Origin: Defluviitaleaceae bacterium
Lineage (GTDB): Bacteria > Bacillota > Clostridia > Lachnospirales > WQUN01
Assembly (NCBI GenBank): GCA_009781755.1
Contig: WQVD01000006.1
Location: 1-64,000 of the forward strand
DNA length: 64,000 bases
Direction of reading: 5' to 3'
Shown here in pieces: positions 56,464 through 61,490 of the stretch. The position numbers and the translations under genes are program-made. Position 1 is the stretch's first letter; each line of letters starts with the position of its first letter. The notes under the pieces were generated by a model. The model was not told the origin of the DNA and did not search any database. It saw only the letters and a list, made by a program, of their open reading frames with translations.

Positions 56464-56727
56464 TTACTGCTCGTAATGTGTCCACATACTTAATACTCTA
56501 ACTATTTTTTCATCTTCATGCACTTCATAAACCAATCTGTGTTTTCGATTAATCCGACGCGAATAAGCACCATTTAAATTCCCCTTTAACTTTTCATACG
56601 GTGGCGGAATTTGATATGGATTTTGTTGGATAACCGTTAATAATGCTTGCGCATGCAAATCCAACTTGGCCGATTTAAGCTTTGGAATATCTTTTGTTGA
56701 TTGTTTTGTGTATACGAGTGCGTACAT
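56464..56727 (-). CDS. YoeB/RelE-type toxin
   Basis: An 87-residue RelE-superfamily mRNA interferase. The YoeB-type pattern is seen in YALVYTKQSTKDIPKL at the start and in RINRKHRLVYEVHEDEKIVRVLSMWTHYEQ at the end, where the Glu, Arg and terminal Tyr residues of the catalytic site lie. The start is ATG 56725-56727, which overlaps the stop of the antitoxin (TGATG). The toxin cleaves mRNA in the ribosome when freed from its antitoxin. The arrangement antitoxin-then-toxin with overlap is the usual autoregulated module. Confidence 0.88.
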   Translation of the reverse strand: MYALVYTKQSTKDIPKLKSAKLDLHAQALLTVIQQNPYQIPPPYEKLKGNLNGAYSRRINRKHRLVYEVHEDEKIVRVLSMWTHYEQ

Positions 56728-56945
56728 CACCAAGCAACCTGATCAGCGGGAAGGCTGTCTTGTAAAGGTTCCGACATACCGGAAATAATTTTTTTCGCCA
56801 TTCCCGGTACAGCATTTAAATAATCGGTATCATTGTCGTAAACATTAAAATAAAACATTTGCATGCTTATATATTTTCGCAAGTCATCTAACGCCTCATC
56901 CGGCAACAATTCAATATCCCGTTTAATTAATTCTCTAACCGCCAT
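56727..56945 (-). CDS. antitoxin of the YoeB/RelE-type pair
   Basis: A 72-residue protein encoded directly upstream of the toxin with a 1-nt stop/start overlap. It begins AVRELIKRDIELLPDEALDDLRKYISM, a short amphipathic region similar to small antitoxins of the DUF2281/prevent-host-death type, and has a C-terminal part rich in Asp, Leu and Pro. Family assignment is uncertain. The role follows from its position. AGGTGATG precedes the ATG at 56943-56945. Confidence 0.75.
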   Translation of the reverse strand: MAVRELIKRDIELLPDEALDDLRKYISMQMFYFNVYDNDTDYLNAVPGMAKKIISGMSEPLQDSLPADQVAW

Positions 56946-57001: not shown

Positions 57002-58981
57002 CTAGCTATTGTATTTTTCCCACTGCACTTTCCGCATGCGATTAATCGCCGCCAAAATATCATAACATCGCGGCATATCCATGAAGCGTTTCATGCCTGT
57101 GAAGAAACCTGTATCCACCAAGTCCAAGCCTTCTTTTTGTATTTGTGCATGCAATGCCCTTACTTTTGTGATTATATCCATCGCATTTTCGCCGCGCTTG
57201 GTAGATGGGCGCAACCCGCGCATTGCTAGTGCCATTGCCTCCAAGTCATCCACGCCTTCATTGCCCTTCGCCAAATGCCGTAGGATAAAAGCCACTGCGT
57301 TGATTTGCGCCTCGGTGGTGATGTCGTGCAGGTTTCGGATGTCGATGCGCTCGTCGCCGATAATGATAAAACCCGTGTCGGAGACTTCCAACTTTTCGCG
57401 GCTCGTACCGGAGGGATAGGTTGAAAAACAACCCGACAGGGCCCGATGATTTTCCCAATCGGCGGCAGGCGGCAATGCTTGTGGTGCGGGGGCCAATGAT
57501 TTTGCATGCGCGGTTACTTCACCCATCACAAATTCGTCCATCATAAAAATGTCATCCGCTACGGACAAATACTCCCCGCTTCCCCCAATGACCAACAGCG
57601 TGGACACGCCCCTGTCAGCCAATTCCCGCACGCGGTCGGTGAAGGGCGTAATCGGTTCACTTTCAATCAGACGCTTCATGACCGCATCGCGAATCATAAA
57701 GTTGGTGGCTGAACGGTCCTCGTCAATGAGCAAAAGCTTCGCACCCAACGAAACCGATTCCATGATATTCGCCCCCTGCGAAGTAGAACCCGAAGCATGC
57801 GTCGTGGAGAAATGCGCAGGGTCGCCGCCCGGTATCCATTTAATGAATGGAGAAATATTCACCGCAGACACCGCGCGTCCGTCTTCTGCGGTGATGGTGA
57901 CAGCGGTATCGTCTGTGATGCAAAGCTCGCGCCCATCCCCCGCAACATGGTTATATATGCCTGCGGACACGGCATTTAACACGGTAGATTTGCCGGAGTA
58001 ACCGCCGCCGGTAATCACCACCACACCGCATTTTATGCCCATGCCTTTGATGCCCGCTACTTCAATTTCATGCTTGGGCGGGCTTTGGAATGGGATGGCA
58101 TTGGCGGCGGGTTTATCACTGCCGCGTTCCCGCGCCAAGATGCTGCCGTTGGCAATAAACGCACAATAACCATTGTTCCGCAGAAAATCACGTATGGCAT
58201 GTTGGGTTTCTTCCAATTTTAATGCGGCTTTTAATCCTTTCACGTCAAATGCTTTGATAAAACGCTGCGTAGCATCGGGCATTTGGTTGCACAGCATCTT
58301 CGTTGCCCTGTCCAGCTTCATATGCGGCAATTGGACTTCCAAACGAATGCACAAGCAAAAAACATCCGGCGGCGAATCCTTCTCCGGGTCAACGTGAATT
58401 CGGTTGCCCCCCAAATCCTCGTAATCTTTGGCTTCCTGCATCGCAAAATAAGCCGCATTACGCTGCAACACCTTTGCGCCGGGCGCGTAAAGATAAAATT
58501 TCCCATTGTCCTTGTCCGGGCGGGTGCGGTTGGCGTACTCCGCGTTAATGGCTTCAAAATATGGCGTTATCGCCCGCAAACAAAAATCTGCCGCGCCGAG
58601 GGTAGGCGTATCGATACCCAACTTTTCCACCGGGATGGCAATGGTAATCGTCGGCCTGTCGGGCACCAGTTTGTTGGTACGGTCCAGCGTGTAAGCAACC
58701 CCGTCATCCCAAAAAGTAGGCACCCGCCAAGATTCCACTCTGGGCGGATCGGTACGCCCCGCGAAAGTCACCACGCATTCGCAGTCATACAAATCCCTTT
58801 GTACCATCTGCACCTTAAAATCTTGCAATGCGCCCTGTTGTACCAAGTCGCCGTCTTTGCCCACTTTTCCTTTATACTTGCGTCCGTCTCCATCAACGGC
58901 TGCTACCGTATAACGGTATGTGGTGGTTCGGTTGTCCGTATTTTTGATACGGTCAAAGTAATAACGTAGTCTCTTCAGCAA
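57002..58981 (-). CDS. ABC_ATPase-family P-loop protein (COG3044 type)
   Basis: A 659-residue protein of the predicted ABC-class ATPase family (ABC_ATPase). The N-terminal 300 residues include YLYAPGAKVLQRNAAYF and RLEVQLPHMKLDRATKMLC. A Walker A GGGYSGKST follows, then a Q-loop/signature-like SQGANIMESVSLGA and a Walker B LLLIDEDRSATNFM. There are no membrane segments. Its function is unknown. I favour TTG 58979-58981 as start, because GGAGG lies 8 nt upstream. The ATG at 58994-58996 has no ribosome binding site and itself forms part of that GGAGG. An attenuator-like leader precedes it. Confidence 0.85.
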   Translation of the reverse strand: MLKRLRYYFDRIKNTDNRTTTYRYTVAAVDGDGRKYKGKVGKDGDLVQQGALQDFKVQMVQRDLYDCECVVTFAGRTDPPRVESWRVPTFWDDGVAYTLDRTNKLVPDRPTITIAIPVEKLGIDTPTLGAADFCLRAITPYFEAINAEYANRTRPDKDNGKFYLYAPGAKVLQRNAAYFAMQEAKDYEDLGGNRIHVDPEKDSPPDVFCLCIRLEVQLPHMKLDRATKMLCNQMPDATQRFIKAFDVKGLKAALKLEETQHAIRDFLRNNGYCAFIANGSILARERGSDKPAANAIPFQSPPKHEIEVAGIKGMGIKCGVVVITGGGYSGKSTVLNAVSAGIYNHVAGDGRELCITDDTAVTITAEDGRAVSAVNISPFIKWIPGGDPAHFSTTHASGSTSQGANIMESVSLGAKLLLIDEDRSATNFMIRDAVMKRLIESEPITPFTDRVRELADRGVSTLLVIGGSGEYLSVADDIFMMDEFVMGEVTAHAKSLAPAPQALPPAADWENHRALSGCFSTYPSGTSREKLEVSDTGFIIIGDERIDIRNLHDITTEAQINAVAFILRHLAKGNEGVDDLEAMALAMRGLRPSTKRGENAMDIITKVRALHAQIQKEGLDLVDTGFFTGMKRFMDMPRCYDILAAINRMRKVQWEKYNS

Positions 58982-59024
58982 TTTTGCTTCCTCCATTGTG
59001 CGGAAGGCAGGGCAAAATAAAAAA

Positions 59025-59047
59025 CGCCGTTGACAAAACCAACGGCG
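59025..59047 (-). terminator. terminator/attenuator hairpin upstream of the ABC_ATPase gene
   Basis: CGCCGTTG and CAACGGCG (59025-59032, 59040-59047) form an 8-bp GC-rich stem with a 7-nt loop, followed on the minus strand by six T residues. It sits between the leader peptide and the ABC_ATPase start, on the coding strand, so it would stop transcription before the gene unless antiterminated. Confidence 0.8.
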
Positions 59048-59072
59048 CGAAAAGACTTACGTCAAAAAAGAC

Positions 59073-59126
59073 CTAAATCGGCACGGACAAAATGGTTTTA
59101 TCAAATAGTGATATGGGTGTTTTCAT
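59073..59126 (-). CDS. 17-codon leader peptide
   Basis: The frame MKTPISLFDKTILSVPI begins at ATG 59124-59126, with GGAGGG (59137-59142) 10 nt upstream, and stops at TAG 59073-59075. It is followed by a terminator hairpin and then the ABC_ATPase gene, the standard layout of ribosome-controlled attenuation. The start codon lies in an 11-bp stem (59084-59094 with 59124-59134). No homologue is known to me. The evidence is the ribosome binding site, position and structure. Confidence 0.55.
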   Translation of the reverse strand: MKTPISLFDKTILSVPI

Positions 59127-59134
59127 TTTGTCCG
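59084..59134 (-). promoter_or_regulatory. leader stem-loop sequestering the leader-peptide start
   Basis: CGGACAAAATG (minus strand, 59124-59134) pairs perfectly with CATTTTGTCCG (59084-59094) across a 29-nt loop, hiding the leader ATG. The segment GATAAAACCA (59093-59102) can pair over 10 bp, one a G-U, with TGGTTTTGTC (59032-59041), which is the terminator loop and its edges. The leader could therefore switch between alternative structures. Confidence 0.55.
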
Positions 59135-59167
59135 ATCCCTCCTGAATTTTTATTTTGATTCCGGAAA

Positions 59168-59196: not shown

Positions 59197-59728
59197 TGAT
59201 AAATCTTGTTTATAATCATTCTTCATCATAAAAAGAGACTGTCTTGTAAGCAAAAACAAGCCGGTCACTATTTTTAATACATAATGTCATGACAAAATCT
59301 TAGAAAATGTCTAAGGTCTTGGCAACGGATGTCCGATACACTGCACCTTGCAACCGAAACAAACGTTTCTACGCCATGGACGGGTTTTGCCACCTCCGCG
59401 AAGGACTTGTGCCTTGTACGGACCGCACCGCTCCCGCTTTAACCTTTGTTACAGGTTGCACAAGCAACACCCTGCACCACCCGCCGCACATATGCAAAGG
59501 GGGTAGCACACCGCGCTTTGGATCCGGCACGGTTATGCTGCCCACGCATGCACCTTTGCAAACAAAGCGGCAAACGCCGGGGGCCCGGGACCCCAATTAC
59601 TATTACAACTACATAACCATTAAACAAAATGAAGAAAGCGAATTGGCAACGCAGGCTGCGAAGACCGGCCGCCAATACAGTTTTTTTGTTAACTTGTTGG
59701 GTTAAAATCATAATTCGCTTTACGCAAA
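59197..59728. other. long non-coding-looking region with unusual GC-rich core
   Basis: About 530 bases hold no convincing gene. The core 59320-59600 is GC-rich, C-rich on the plus strand and open in both directions: 59307-59705 plus, 59369-59596 and 59439-59741 minus. None of these frames has a ribosome binding site or a recognisable domain, and their translations are rich in Cys, Arg and Pro as in chance frames. A small stem CTTAGA/TCTAAG (59299-59315) precedes the core, and GGGGGCCCGGGACCCC ends it. This may be a repeated intergenic element or a structured RNA. I could not match it to tmRNA, RNase P RNA, 6S or SRP RNA by eye. Confidence 0.4.
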
Positions 59729-59804: not shown

Positions 59805-61490
59805 TTATATTCTATTTTTTTCAAGCCATTCCGCTGCCATATCTGCAACCATCTTCAAGTTTTGCGGTTCAAAGGGCGTAGGCAGGCCGCTGTCGCTAAC
59901 AAGCTCTACAAAATTCTTGGTGCCGGCAAACTTTACAAGGCGCACATACTTTTCCCACGTACTCATATGGTCTTTTTGGTTCAATGCCCAAAAATTTAAT
60001 GCCATAATGCCCGCAAGACAGTAGTCAATGTAGTAAAAAGGCATCTGATAAATGTGTATTACTTCCTGCCAGCTGCGACCTTGTGCATAAAATGGTATAT
60101 CAAGCGTGTGATGCCAAGGTCTATACTTTTTATCAAGCGCAAGCCAAAGTGCATTGCGCTCGGCAGGTGTCATTTCGGGTTTGGAATAAACAATGTGCTG
60201 AAATTCGTCCACCATCACCCCATAGGGCAAAAACTCTAAATCCGCAGACAGGTGGCTATGGCAATACTTTGTAGTATCTGCACCAAAAAACCCCTCCATC
60301 CACGGCCATGCAAAAAATTCCATAGCCATGGCGTGTATTTCGCCTATCTCTGCACTGCCTTCTTGCAAGTCATAGGGGTAAATATCCCTTGCTACATAAC
60401 CTGCATAGGCATGTCCGATCTCGTGGGTAAGCACGTCAATGTCTTCACTCGTTCCTCTAAAAGTTGCATGAATAAATGGGGATTAGTAAATTGCAAAGTC
60501 TGTCATGTAACCGCCTATACCCCTGTCAGGCTTGTTAAGCACATCAATCAAATCATTTGCTAACATAAAATTAAAAAACGCGCTCGTTTCGTCAGATAGT
60601 TCGGCATACATCTTTTTGCCGTGGGCAAATATTTCGTCGTGCGTGCCTTTGGGTGTTGCGTTGCCGTCAGGGAAATTAAATTTTTGGTCTGCCGTGTCAA
60701 TTTTGTCCACACCTATACGCTTGGCTTGCTCCGCTTTTATGGCTGTCACAAGCGGCACAATATGTTCCAACACCCCTTGGCGAAACTTTGCAACCATGGC
60801 TTCGTCATAACAATTTCTCTGCATACGGTAGTAACCAAGTTCCGTAAAACTCTTGTAGCCAAGCTTTTTTGCTATGGCTGTGCGGAGTTTTACAAGCTTG
60901 TCAAAAATAGCGTCAAACTTTTCTGCATGGCTCATATACCAGTCAGACATTGCTTTGTAGGCAGCTACACGCACTTCCCTGTCCTTGTTTTCAAAATAAG
61001 CTTCTATGTCGGACATGTTCATCGTCTTGCCATCAAACTCAAACTCAGCAGCGTTCCACAAGTCGAAATATTCACCGCCAAGCTTGTTTTCCTCTTGCAA
61101 GTCTTCAATAATTTCAGGGCTAAAGGTTTTACGCTTCATTTCAAGATTTACAAACATCAGCTTACCCCAGGCTGTCTCCATTTCTGCACGAAAAGGCGAT
61201 TCGAGCATGGCCTTAGAAATTTCTTGCTTCACTTCCTCAAGCATGGGGTCGATTTCGTCCAAATAATCATGCTCAGCCGCGTAATATTCATCCTTGGTAT
61301 TCAAGCTTTTGCGCGCATAAGCAAGGTTAAACATGGTGCTTACCCATTCGTTAAGACCGTTTATTTCCTTATAAATTGCAAAACAGTCCTCGGCAGTCTG
61401 CGCTCCCTTAAACTGCTCAATAAGCGCTTGGTATTTTGCGCTTGTTTGCGCTAATTCGGGTCTAATATACTGCATATCTGCAAATTTCAT
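59805..61490 (-). pseudogene. oligoendopeptidase F-like M3 peptidase interrupted by one in-frame ochre stop
   Basis: One frame of 561 codons encodes an M3-family zinc oligopeptidase (M3B/PepF-like). It has an N-terminal helical half (SAKYQALIEQFKGAQTAEDC, DKFDGKTMNMSDIEAYFENKDREVRVAAYKA in part) and then the zinc motif H-E-x-x-H in LTHEIGHAYAGYV. The downstream Glu ligand is in MAMEFFAWPW. At codon 336 a TAA (60483-60485) lies just before SPFIHATFRGTSEDIDVLTHE. In PepF-like enzymes this position is typically Lys (YKSPF), so an AAA-to-TAA change explains it. The rest of the frame is intact to 59805. As read, the product would lose its active site. The ribosome binding site is AGGAGGG. A sequencing error is possible. 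Confidence 0.88.

Follow-up and report, generated by a model that had tools for sequence, protein, structure and literature searches.

Which signals decide whether the gene for a PF09818 ATPase is expressed in a Defluviitaleaceae bacterium? The gene and its leader lie on the minus strand of a 64,000-nucleotide (nt) stretch of contig WQVD01000006.1, the whole of which was analyzed and is called the window here; all coordinates are those of the window. The gene runs from a TTG start codon at 58981 to 57002 and encodes a 659-residue ABC-class ATPase with an MRB1590_C domain (PF09818, E = 1.8e-96 and 323 bits for a cutoff of 23.2; MRB1590_C, 50.1 bits for a cutoff of 27). The solved homologues are 4yix, 4yiy, and 4yj1 (kRNA editing protein) and 5d6a, with E values of 1.6e-69 to 3.3e-68. 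PF09818 proteins are widespread, structures have been solved, and in the open-license literature we found neither a bacterial function nor attenuator control for them; a preliminary description of the locus, which knew of no attenuator for this ATPase family, was not contradicted in this respect. That description had read the leader as combining transcription attenuation with translational sequestration. Our analysis supports this reading by conservation of the open reading frame (ORF) and stems, co-variation of antiterminator and terminator, and a hairpin over the Shine-Dalgarno (SD) sequence of the gene, and it confirms that the arrangement is real and not due to chance. We consider it likely that the leader is a translation-sensing, ribosome-controlled transcription attenuator of the vmlR or hflXr kind, with additional SD sequestration.

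Elements of the leader and their co-variation

In the order of transcription, the leader contains the SD sequence GGAGGG (59137-59142), a 17-codon ORF, MKTPISLFDKTILSVPI (59073-59126; ATG at 59126-59124), and a perfect 11-bp stem, P1, whose 5′ arm (59124-59134) holds the start codon and whose 3′ arm spans positions 59084-59094. The loop of P1 carries the antiterminator segment L1, TTGATAAAACCA (59093-59104). A small hairpin with a U-rich loop, SL2 (59054-59079), is located between the ORF and the hairpin of an intrinsic terminator, T (59024-59048), followed by a U tract (59023-59014). A further hairpin predicted by folding, P3 (58981-59018), sequesters the SD sequence GGAGG of the ATPase gene (58990-58994). 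The preliminary description had listed the GGAGGG sequence, the 17-codon ORF, the ATG in a perfect 11-bp stem, the U-tailed terminator, the GGAGG sequence, the TTG start, and the 659-residue protein, all of which were recovered in place. The 10-nt match that it had seen between the leader loop and the terminator proved to be slightly longer, since L1 is complementary over 12 nt, including one G-U, to the loop and stem edges of T (TGGTTTTGTCAA, 59030-59041), with 59104-59093 facing 59041-59030.

Comparison with dinucleotide shuffles revealed that the whole leader is unusually stable (minimum free energy z = −5.18; 0/200 as stable), and the P1 stem was reached by none of 200 shuffles of the ORF. 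Taken alone, the L1:T complementarity of the window is modest, 1.7% of 300 mononucleotide shuffles of the ORF being as good. The worry that a match so rich in A and U arose by chance was removed by compensatory changes across relatives, and it is because of this co-variation that we regard L1:T as real.

A query with the ATPase protein matched 10 of 38 genomes in the family to which the window belongs, that of the window being counted, and the gene is therefore accessory. The named records containing a relative were Defluviitaleaceae, other metagenome-assembled genomes (MAGs) of Clostridia, and one Arcanobacterium MAG (6 loci). The leader is present just upstream of the gene in nine of the 10 family genomes, that of the window among them; in the remaining one (G028), the gene is cut off by the end of the contig. 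The alignment of these nine leaders (A2) had 93.0% of the cells of P1 and T paired versus 38.6 to 49.2% in slid registers, with double changes at two P1 pairs and two T pairs. For L1:T, 83.0% of the cells paired versus 30.0 to 51.0% upon sliding, double changes occurred at 4 of 12 pairs, and the covariation score exceeded those of all 500 shuffles and all six slid registers. Swapping leaders and terminators in ungapped pairings showed that the leaders of G031 and G033 fit the terminators of these two genomes (9.9 to 11.5) and no other of the nine (≤9.0), and that the terminator of G009 is best fitted by its own leader (12.8 versus ≤9.0).

Seven leaders from other genomes, described below, brought the set to 16. 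In this set, double changes affected 10 of 20 pairs (two of the 10 in P1 and eight of the 10 in T) in a total of 23 cells, with 0/500 shuffles reaching the observed values on all five measures. The energies of the best duplexes between leader and terminator, sought anywhere in the ORF, summed to −298.4 for the 16 true pairs versus an average of −215.8 (standard deviation, 14.0) for re-pairings, and none of 200,000 random re-pairings of the 16 leaders with the 16 terminators reached the observed value. When ungapped pairing was scored instead, none of 100,000 re-pairings of the 16 leaders reached the observed sum; the corresponding counts were 37 for the nine family leaders, 300 for the seven others, and 1 for a set of nine spread-out leaders. 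The presence of the match is partly selected among the leaders retrieved with R2, since this model (see below) includes the sequence of both the L1 and T segments; compensatory changes that R2 did not select were found in G376 (CCGATAAAGTCG with CGATTTTGTCGG) and in G302 (CGATGAAATCG with CGATTTCATCG). The alignment of related leaders, which had been suggested as a check, thus revealed co-variation of both stems and of L1:T, and the ORF, the stems, and the complementarity were conserved in close relatives. A GCGCCG sequence of the leader, considered as a mimic of the 5′ arm of the terminator, was dropped by eye, as it is missing in G009 and G235.

An ORF with a ribosome-binding site precedes an intrinsic terminator in all 16 leaders, the SD-like G-rich stretch having been identified by eye. 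At the position of SL2, the relatives contain small hairpins that differ in sequence and stability, except for G302, which has none; SL2 might be a pause element. Upstream of the leader, a promoter-like element (TTGCAT at 59196-59191, a 17-nt spacer, and TACGCT at 59173-59168) was read by eye, as were counterparts at the same position in relatives, namely, TTGC..-17-TATGTT in G032, TATGAT in G001 and G002, and TAAACT in G027. An automatic promoter consensus scan did not return this element and gave two others located farther upstream on the same strand. Transcription starting downstream of 59047 had been raised as an objection to the attenuator; the element seen by eye at 59196-59168 points instead to a start upstream of that position.

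Recurrence before other genes and distribution among PF09818 proteins

A covariance model built from the nine family leaders (R1) gave an outlier match (E = 3.0e-13) in G235, a genome from another family. The leader precedes there a gene for a major facilitator superfamily (MFS) transporter that is a distant relative of Mef(A) (49.4 bits versus a 675-bit cutoff and, thus, not a member of Mef), followed by a gene for an RsgA-like GTPase (125.3 bits versus a cutoff of 100). A second model, R2, added leaders from G771, G784, G367, G376, G302, and G586 (43.6 to 88.8 bits). The first gene after the leader in these seven genomes encodes a GNAT-fold acetyltransferase in five cases and an MFS transporter in two (G235 and G771, both with the MFS-RsgA pair). 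Thus, the switch does precede the ATPase gene, as the preliminary description had it, without being specific to that gene. The GNAT and MFS proteins may have drug-related roles, and the location of the module before them makes it probable that the ATPase takes part in a response to compounds directed at the ribosome. The MFS-RsgA operon is conserved under the leader (L127:1979-4404 and L175) and could possibly be an uncharacterized ribosome-drug resistance operon. In G376, the GNAT gene lies in a 676-residue open frame (L178:3581-5608, minus strand) that contains two GNAT matches and, farther downstream, a weak match to a kinase fold (Pkinase, 7e-4), reminiscent of bifunctional resistance enzymes.

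The leader element is sparse. At E ≤ 0.01, R2 gave matches, many of them weak, in 20 of the 299 genomes of the family of G235 and in 27 of the 391 genomes of the class. We inspected 21 loci, 20 from the R2 lists and one from R1 (G167, followed up among the weak R1 matches with E above 1e-4), and kept the six new leaders with P1, the ORF, and the complement; the other 15 (28.7 to 41.3 bits) were dropped since they appeared by eye to be plain terminators or coding sequences without P1. A third model, R3, detected only G367 and G586 among the 21 genomes of the family of G367 and only the leader of the window among 117 genomes of the phylum. Absences are soft in general, since stricter filters apply whenever more than 40 genomes are scanned. 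No leader match was obtained in the plasmid collection, in which the relatives of the MFS protein were all distant (17 records, none reaching 60% identity), and the one exact leader pattern searched in viral contigs was absent.

Among PF09818 proteins, the leader is confined in our sample to a single clade. In a midpoint-rooted tree of 64 proteins, for which leader labels were partly assigned by eye, leaders are associated with 16 of the 17 rows on one side of a branch supported at 100/100 and with none of the 47 rows on the other side, so that the label requires two changes versus 14.4 in shuffles; two long branches (L043 and L042) may attract, and support is low (88/13) for one fork within the clade. 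The exception within the clade is G003b (L056, G003:C11), upstream of which no terminator was found. Two PF09818 copies are present in three genomes (G003, G203, and G291). A uniform scan detected an ORF plus a terminator at 14 of 16 leader-labeled loci versus 3 of 48 others (L071, L081, and L099; L076, also among the 48, has 10 bases of flank) and a strong start-region stem at 11 of 16 versus 0 of 48; it missed L041 and L057, which were counted as leaders by eye. Among 105 genes in the window and 13 loci, 24 had an upstream terminator, 12 had an ORF plus a terminator, and 8 passed the stem test, all of them with known leaders, while the 97 genes failing that test include the PF09818 genes of L040 to L042, whose leaders score below the cutoff. 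Sharing of the attenuator with acetyltransferases and an efflux-RsgA operon and its restriction to one PF09818 clade lead to the testable hypothesis that this clade answers ribosome-targeting compounds.

Divergent PF09818 genes (L042, L058, L059, and L064) are preceded by a second type of leader with a GTGATYAA(C/T)ATG-like sequence, a stem that covers the AUG or immediately precedes it, and terminators with TCCG motifs. This type, which was read by eye in L059 and L042 and also detected by the uniform scan in L059, may represent a separate attenuator family.

Proposed translation sensing and alternative explanations

The leader ORF comprises 14 to 25 codons. The distance from the ATG to the TTG(T/C)C(C/T) motif in the 3′ arm of P1 varies from 33 to 54 nt, yet it is a multiple of 3 in 15 of the 16 leaders, indicating that the leader is translated; in the exception, G302, the arm is read in another frame. 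Judging from these sequence patterns, translation of the leader is probably required. L1, on the other hand, is read in different frames in different leader subgroups, indicating that it is the RNA match and not a peptide that is kept.

The effect of a ribosome was modeled by masked folding, a nested model outside which pseudoknots fall, with nascent RNA taken before completion of the 3′ arm of T. In the nascent RNA without a ribosome, the mean probability of L1:T was below 0.5 in 12 of the 16 leaders, and a ribosome mask at the AUG raised it to 0.71 to 0.99 in all 16. In the full-length leader, the probability of T was 0.87 to 0.99 without a mask and at least 0.81 in 14 of 16 leaders with a mask at the stop codon. 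P1 overlaps the ORF and crosses L1:T topologically, and masked folding suggests that it probably acts as an anti-antiterminator (4 of the 16 leaders do not need the mask). L1:T and T are mutually exclusive, a relationship backed by co-variation. The "kissing" contact of the preliminary description is therefore retained as a pairing but is better read as an antiterminator competing with the terminator than as a static contact. As T is favored at equilibrium, antitermination would have to be kinetic.

In a healthy cell, P1 would form or re-form, or ribosomes would run through the leader ORF, and L1 would be kept from the nascent terminator; transcription would stop at T, and leaky transcripts would hold the SD sequence of the gene in P3. 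Stalling of a ribosome on the leader AUG or immediately past it, for which an inhibitor of initiation or early elongation is the most plausible cause, would prevent formation of P1. L1 would then pair with the emerging 5′ arm and loop of T, delaying the terminator past the U tract and allowing transcription of the ATPase gene. The inducers are probably translation inhibitors, and recurrence of the conserved switch before genes of the drug resistance type suggests that blocking of the ribosome by a compound turns on the ATPase.

The SD sequence of the gene is covered by a local hairpin in eight of the nine family leaders (not in G031), according to our reading of the folds. In five of the seven other leaders (G235, G771, G784, G367, and G376), a segment immediately following the leader stop codon pairs with the SD sequence beyond the terminator; no such anti-SD pairing was found in G302 and G586. 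Permutation of the pairing partners reached the observed total in 52 of 50,000 trials for the 16 leaders and in 89 of 50,000 for the seven others. The anti-SD:SD helix nests around T and crosses L1:T. It may therefore keep leaky transcripts silent and be freed upon formation of L1:T.

Several observations weigh against control by a ribosome acting through P1 and L1:T. Nascent L1:T is predicted even without a ribosome in four leaders (G001, G784, G376, and G302), and T stays favored at equilibrium with the AUG masked, with a probability of 0.75 or more in 13 of 16. For the nine family leaders, two of the five L1:T measures did not exceed shuffles (double-changed pairs, 62/500; pair types, 396/500). 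L1:T is weak in G003, with two internal mismatches and a leader that fits the terminators of G001 and G002 better than its own, and in G586 (8 bp, with 16% of shuffles as good), and the best duplex of G033 in the energy score is not the L1 site. The stem over the AUG did not exceed shuffles in G033, G003, and G302, though the lower P1 pairs are kept. In divergent PF09818 leaders such as that of G250 (L064), a start-codon stem and a terminator are present, whereas L1:T is not clear, 37% of shuffles scoring as well. Finally, the GNAT and MFS genes all score below the curated cutoffs for resistance proteins.

The same elements could sense a failure of initiation: in the absence of ribosomes initiating on the leader, P1 would stay closed and its loop segment L1 would pair with T as a pseudoknot, leading to readthrough, whereas translating ribosomes would mask L1 and cause termination. 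Burial of the start codon in P1 would render leader translation sensitive to initiation capacity, the loops appear to be long enough for L1 to pair with P1 closed, and L1 directly abuts the 3′ arm of P1 in the family leaders, as coaxial stacking would favor. In G235, however, L1 sits 4 nt from that arm, and the mechanism requires a pseudoknot, which nested folding cannot score; the L1:T probabilities below 0.5 obtained by such folding in 12 of 16 ribosome-free nascent RNAs also speak against it. We regard this explanation as unlikely.

Arrest of the ribosome by the nascent peptide at or near the stop codon, as in TnaC or SpeFL, would assign control of termination to a conserved C-terminal I-L-S-A region. 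ILSA- or LSAP-like segments do occur in most leader peptides, with the frame kept in 15 of 16, and a mask at the stop codon lowers the probability of T to 0.35 in G235 and 0.33 in G302. These residues are, however, encoded by the 3′ arm of P1, which G302 reads in another frame, and are already fixed by the RNA stem, and the mask at the stop codon leaves L1:T at 0.00 in 15 of the 16 leaders. The main reason for rejection is that the stop codon moves, being found anywhere from +43 to +76, with peptides ending in PI, LI, SAF, RI, KRL, PM, PG, AV, TK, AD, LR, LD, or AI. In codons 2 to 6, the 36 pairwise comparisons gave differences at the first, second, and third positions in 48, 75, and 90 of 180 cases, respectively; of the codon differences, 25 were synonymous and 100 nonsynonymous, so that little amino acid constraint was apparent. 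Neither an RLR nor an RYR stalling motif was found in the list of the 16 peptides. Peptide arrest is thus very unlikely, and while the initial reading as an attenuator stands, a specific stalling peptide is not supported, given the variable frame of L1 and the moving stop codon. A leader peptide attenuator of the amino acid biosynthesis type was also rejected, since the listed peptides share no run of codons for one amino acid and the downstream genes are not biosynthetic.

Autogenous control through binding of the PF09818 protein to hairpins of its own leader is suggested by the trypanosome relative KRBP72/MRB1590, an RNA-binding protein of solved structure whose RNA-binding region is N-terminal (PMC11754742). 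The same leader nevertheless precedes GNAT and MFS genes, the PF09818 gene of G235 is on a contig other than that of the leader, and the leader-carrying genomes G302, G376, and G586 show weak PF09818 matches only (best E values of 9.6e-4, 5.8e-4, and 4.9e-5, respectively, in assemblies that are 88 to 94% complete); such control is barely probable. Least probable of all is a small-molecule riboswitch or T-box-like element, which a conserved 5′ leader with a terminator might evoke, since no Rfam family except tRNA reached the threshold in the window or the seven other leader loci, the subthreshold matches (best, 25.5 bits versus 49.5) cover mostly the terminator, and conservation resides in the ORF, stem, complement, and terminator, no conserved aptamer-like domain being visible apart from them.

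In the vicinity of the locus, a 58-bp stretch upstream of the promoter-like element (59240-59297) occurs as an 81% copy elsewhere in the genome, on a different contig (G000:C15:34891-34948). A YoeB/RelE-like toxin ORF and a 72-residue ORF before it (56464-56945, minus strand), immediately downstream of the ATPase gene, are likely to form a toxin-antitoxin pair. An M3-peptidase-like gene (59805-61490, minus strand) may be divided into two frames, of 335 residues without a Pfam match and then 209 residues with PF01432, and may be broken or misassembled.

Comparison with known attenuators

In leaders of the Erm and Msr types, resistance genes are controlled through short ORFs on which a drug stalls the ribosome, a process that depends on peptide motifs; in contrast, no conserved stalling motif is evident here. 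The leader of Bacillus subtilis vmlR contains an ORF inside an anti-antiterminator hairpin, a pause hairpin, a terminator, and an SD-sequestering hairpin, SL-4 (PMC9226507). Drugs that stall initiating ribosomes break the anti-antiterminator, and transcription and translation attenuation are combined. The likeness to the present leaders is one of layout, from the ORF in the anti-antiterminator to the SD hairpin. The vmlR leader differs by an ORF of 3 codons (MIN) and by the control of an ABC-F protein, whereas the leaders described here have ORFs of 14 to 25 codons, the AUG itself in the stem in most cases, an antiterminator made of a hairpin-to-hairpin complement, and a module shared by unrelated genes.

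Ribosome-controlled attenuation is therefore known as a kind, but this module appears to be new within the open-license literature, as do its reuse and the link with PF09818; no description of the leader element was found there, passages of a 2010 survey of premature terminators (PMC2965389) included. The PF09818 protein belongs to the same ATPase family as KRBP72/MRB1590, for which the literature searched mentions no attenuator control. The P1/L1/T sequence-structure model may be used to find more inducible resistance-type genes in uncultured gut Clostridia.

The hflXr leader of Listeria monocytogenes (rli80) combines a 14-residue ORF, an anti-antiterminator, an antiterminator, and a terminator, and the leader-bearing paralogue of this ribosome-associated factor is the inducible resistance copy, the other copy not being involved (PMC6310831). 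Our system resembles it by the same set of elements and by the existence of leader-bearing and leaderless PF09818 clades; it differs in that the rli80 peptide carries RLR, found in none of our 16 leaders, and that HflXr is a GTPase and not a PF09818 ATPase. By analogy, it is conceivable, though we hold it with less than even confidence, that the start-codon stem, the loop-to-terminator antiterminator, and the anti-SD element define an undescribed mobile attenuator family of Clostridia that marks inducible responses to ribosome-targeting drugs, and that the PF09818 proteins of the leader-bearing clade form a new class of inducible ATPases for ribosome protection, rescue, or resistance, whose relation to a leaderless housekeeping clade would be that of HflXr to HflX.

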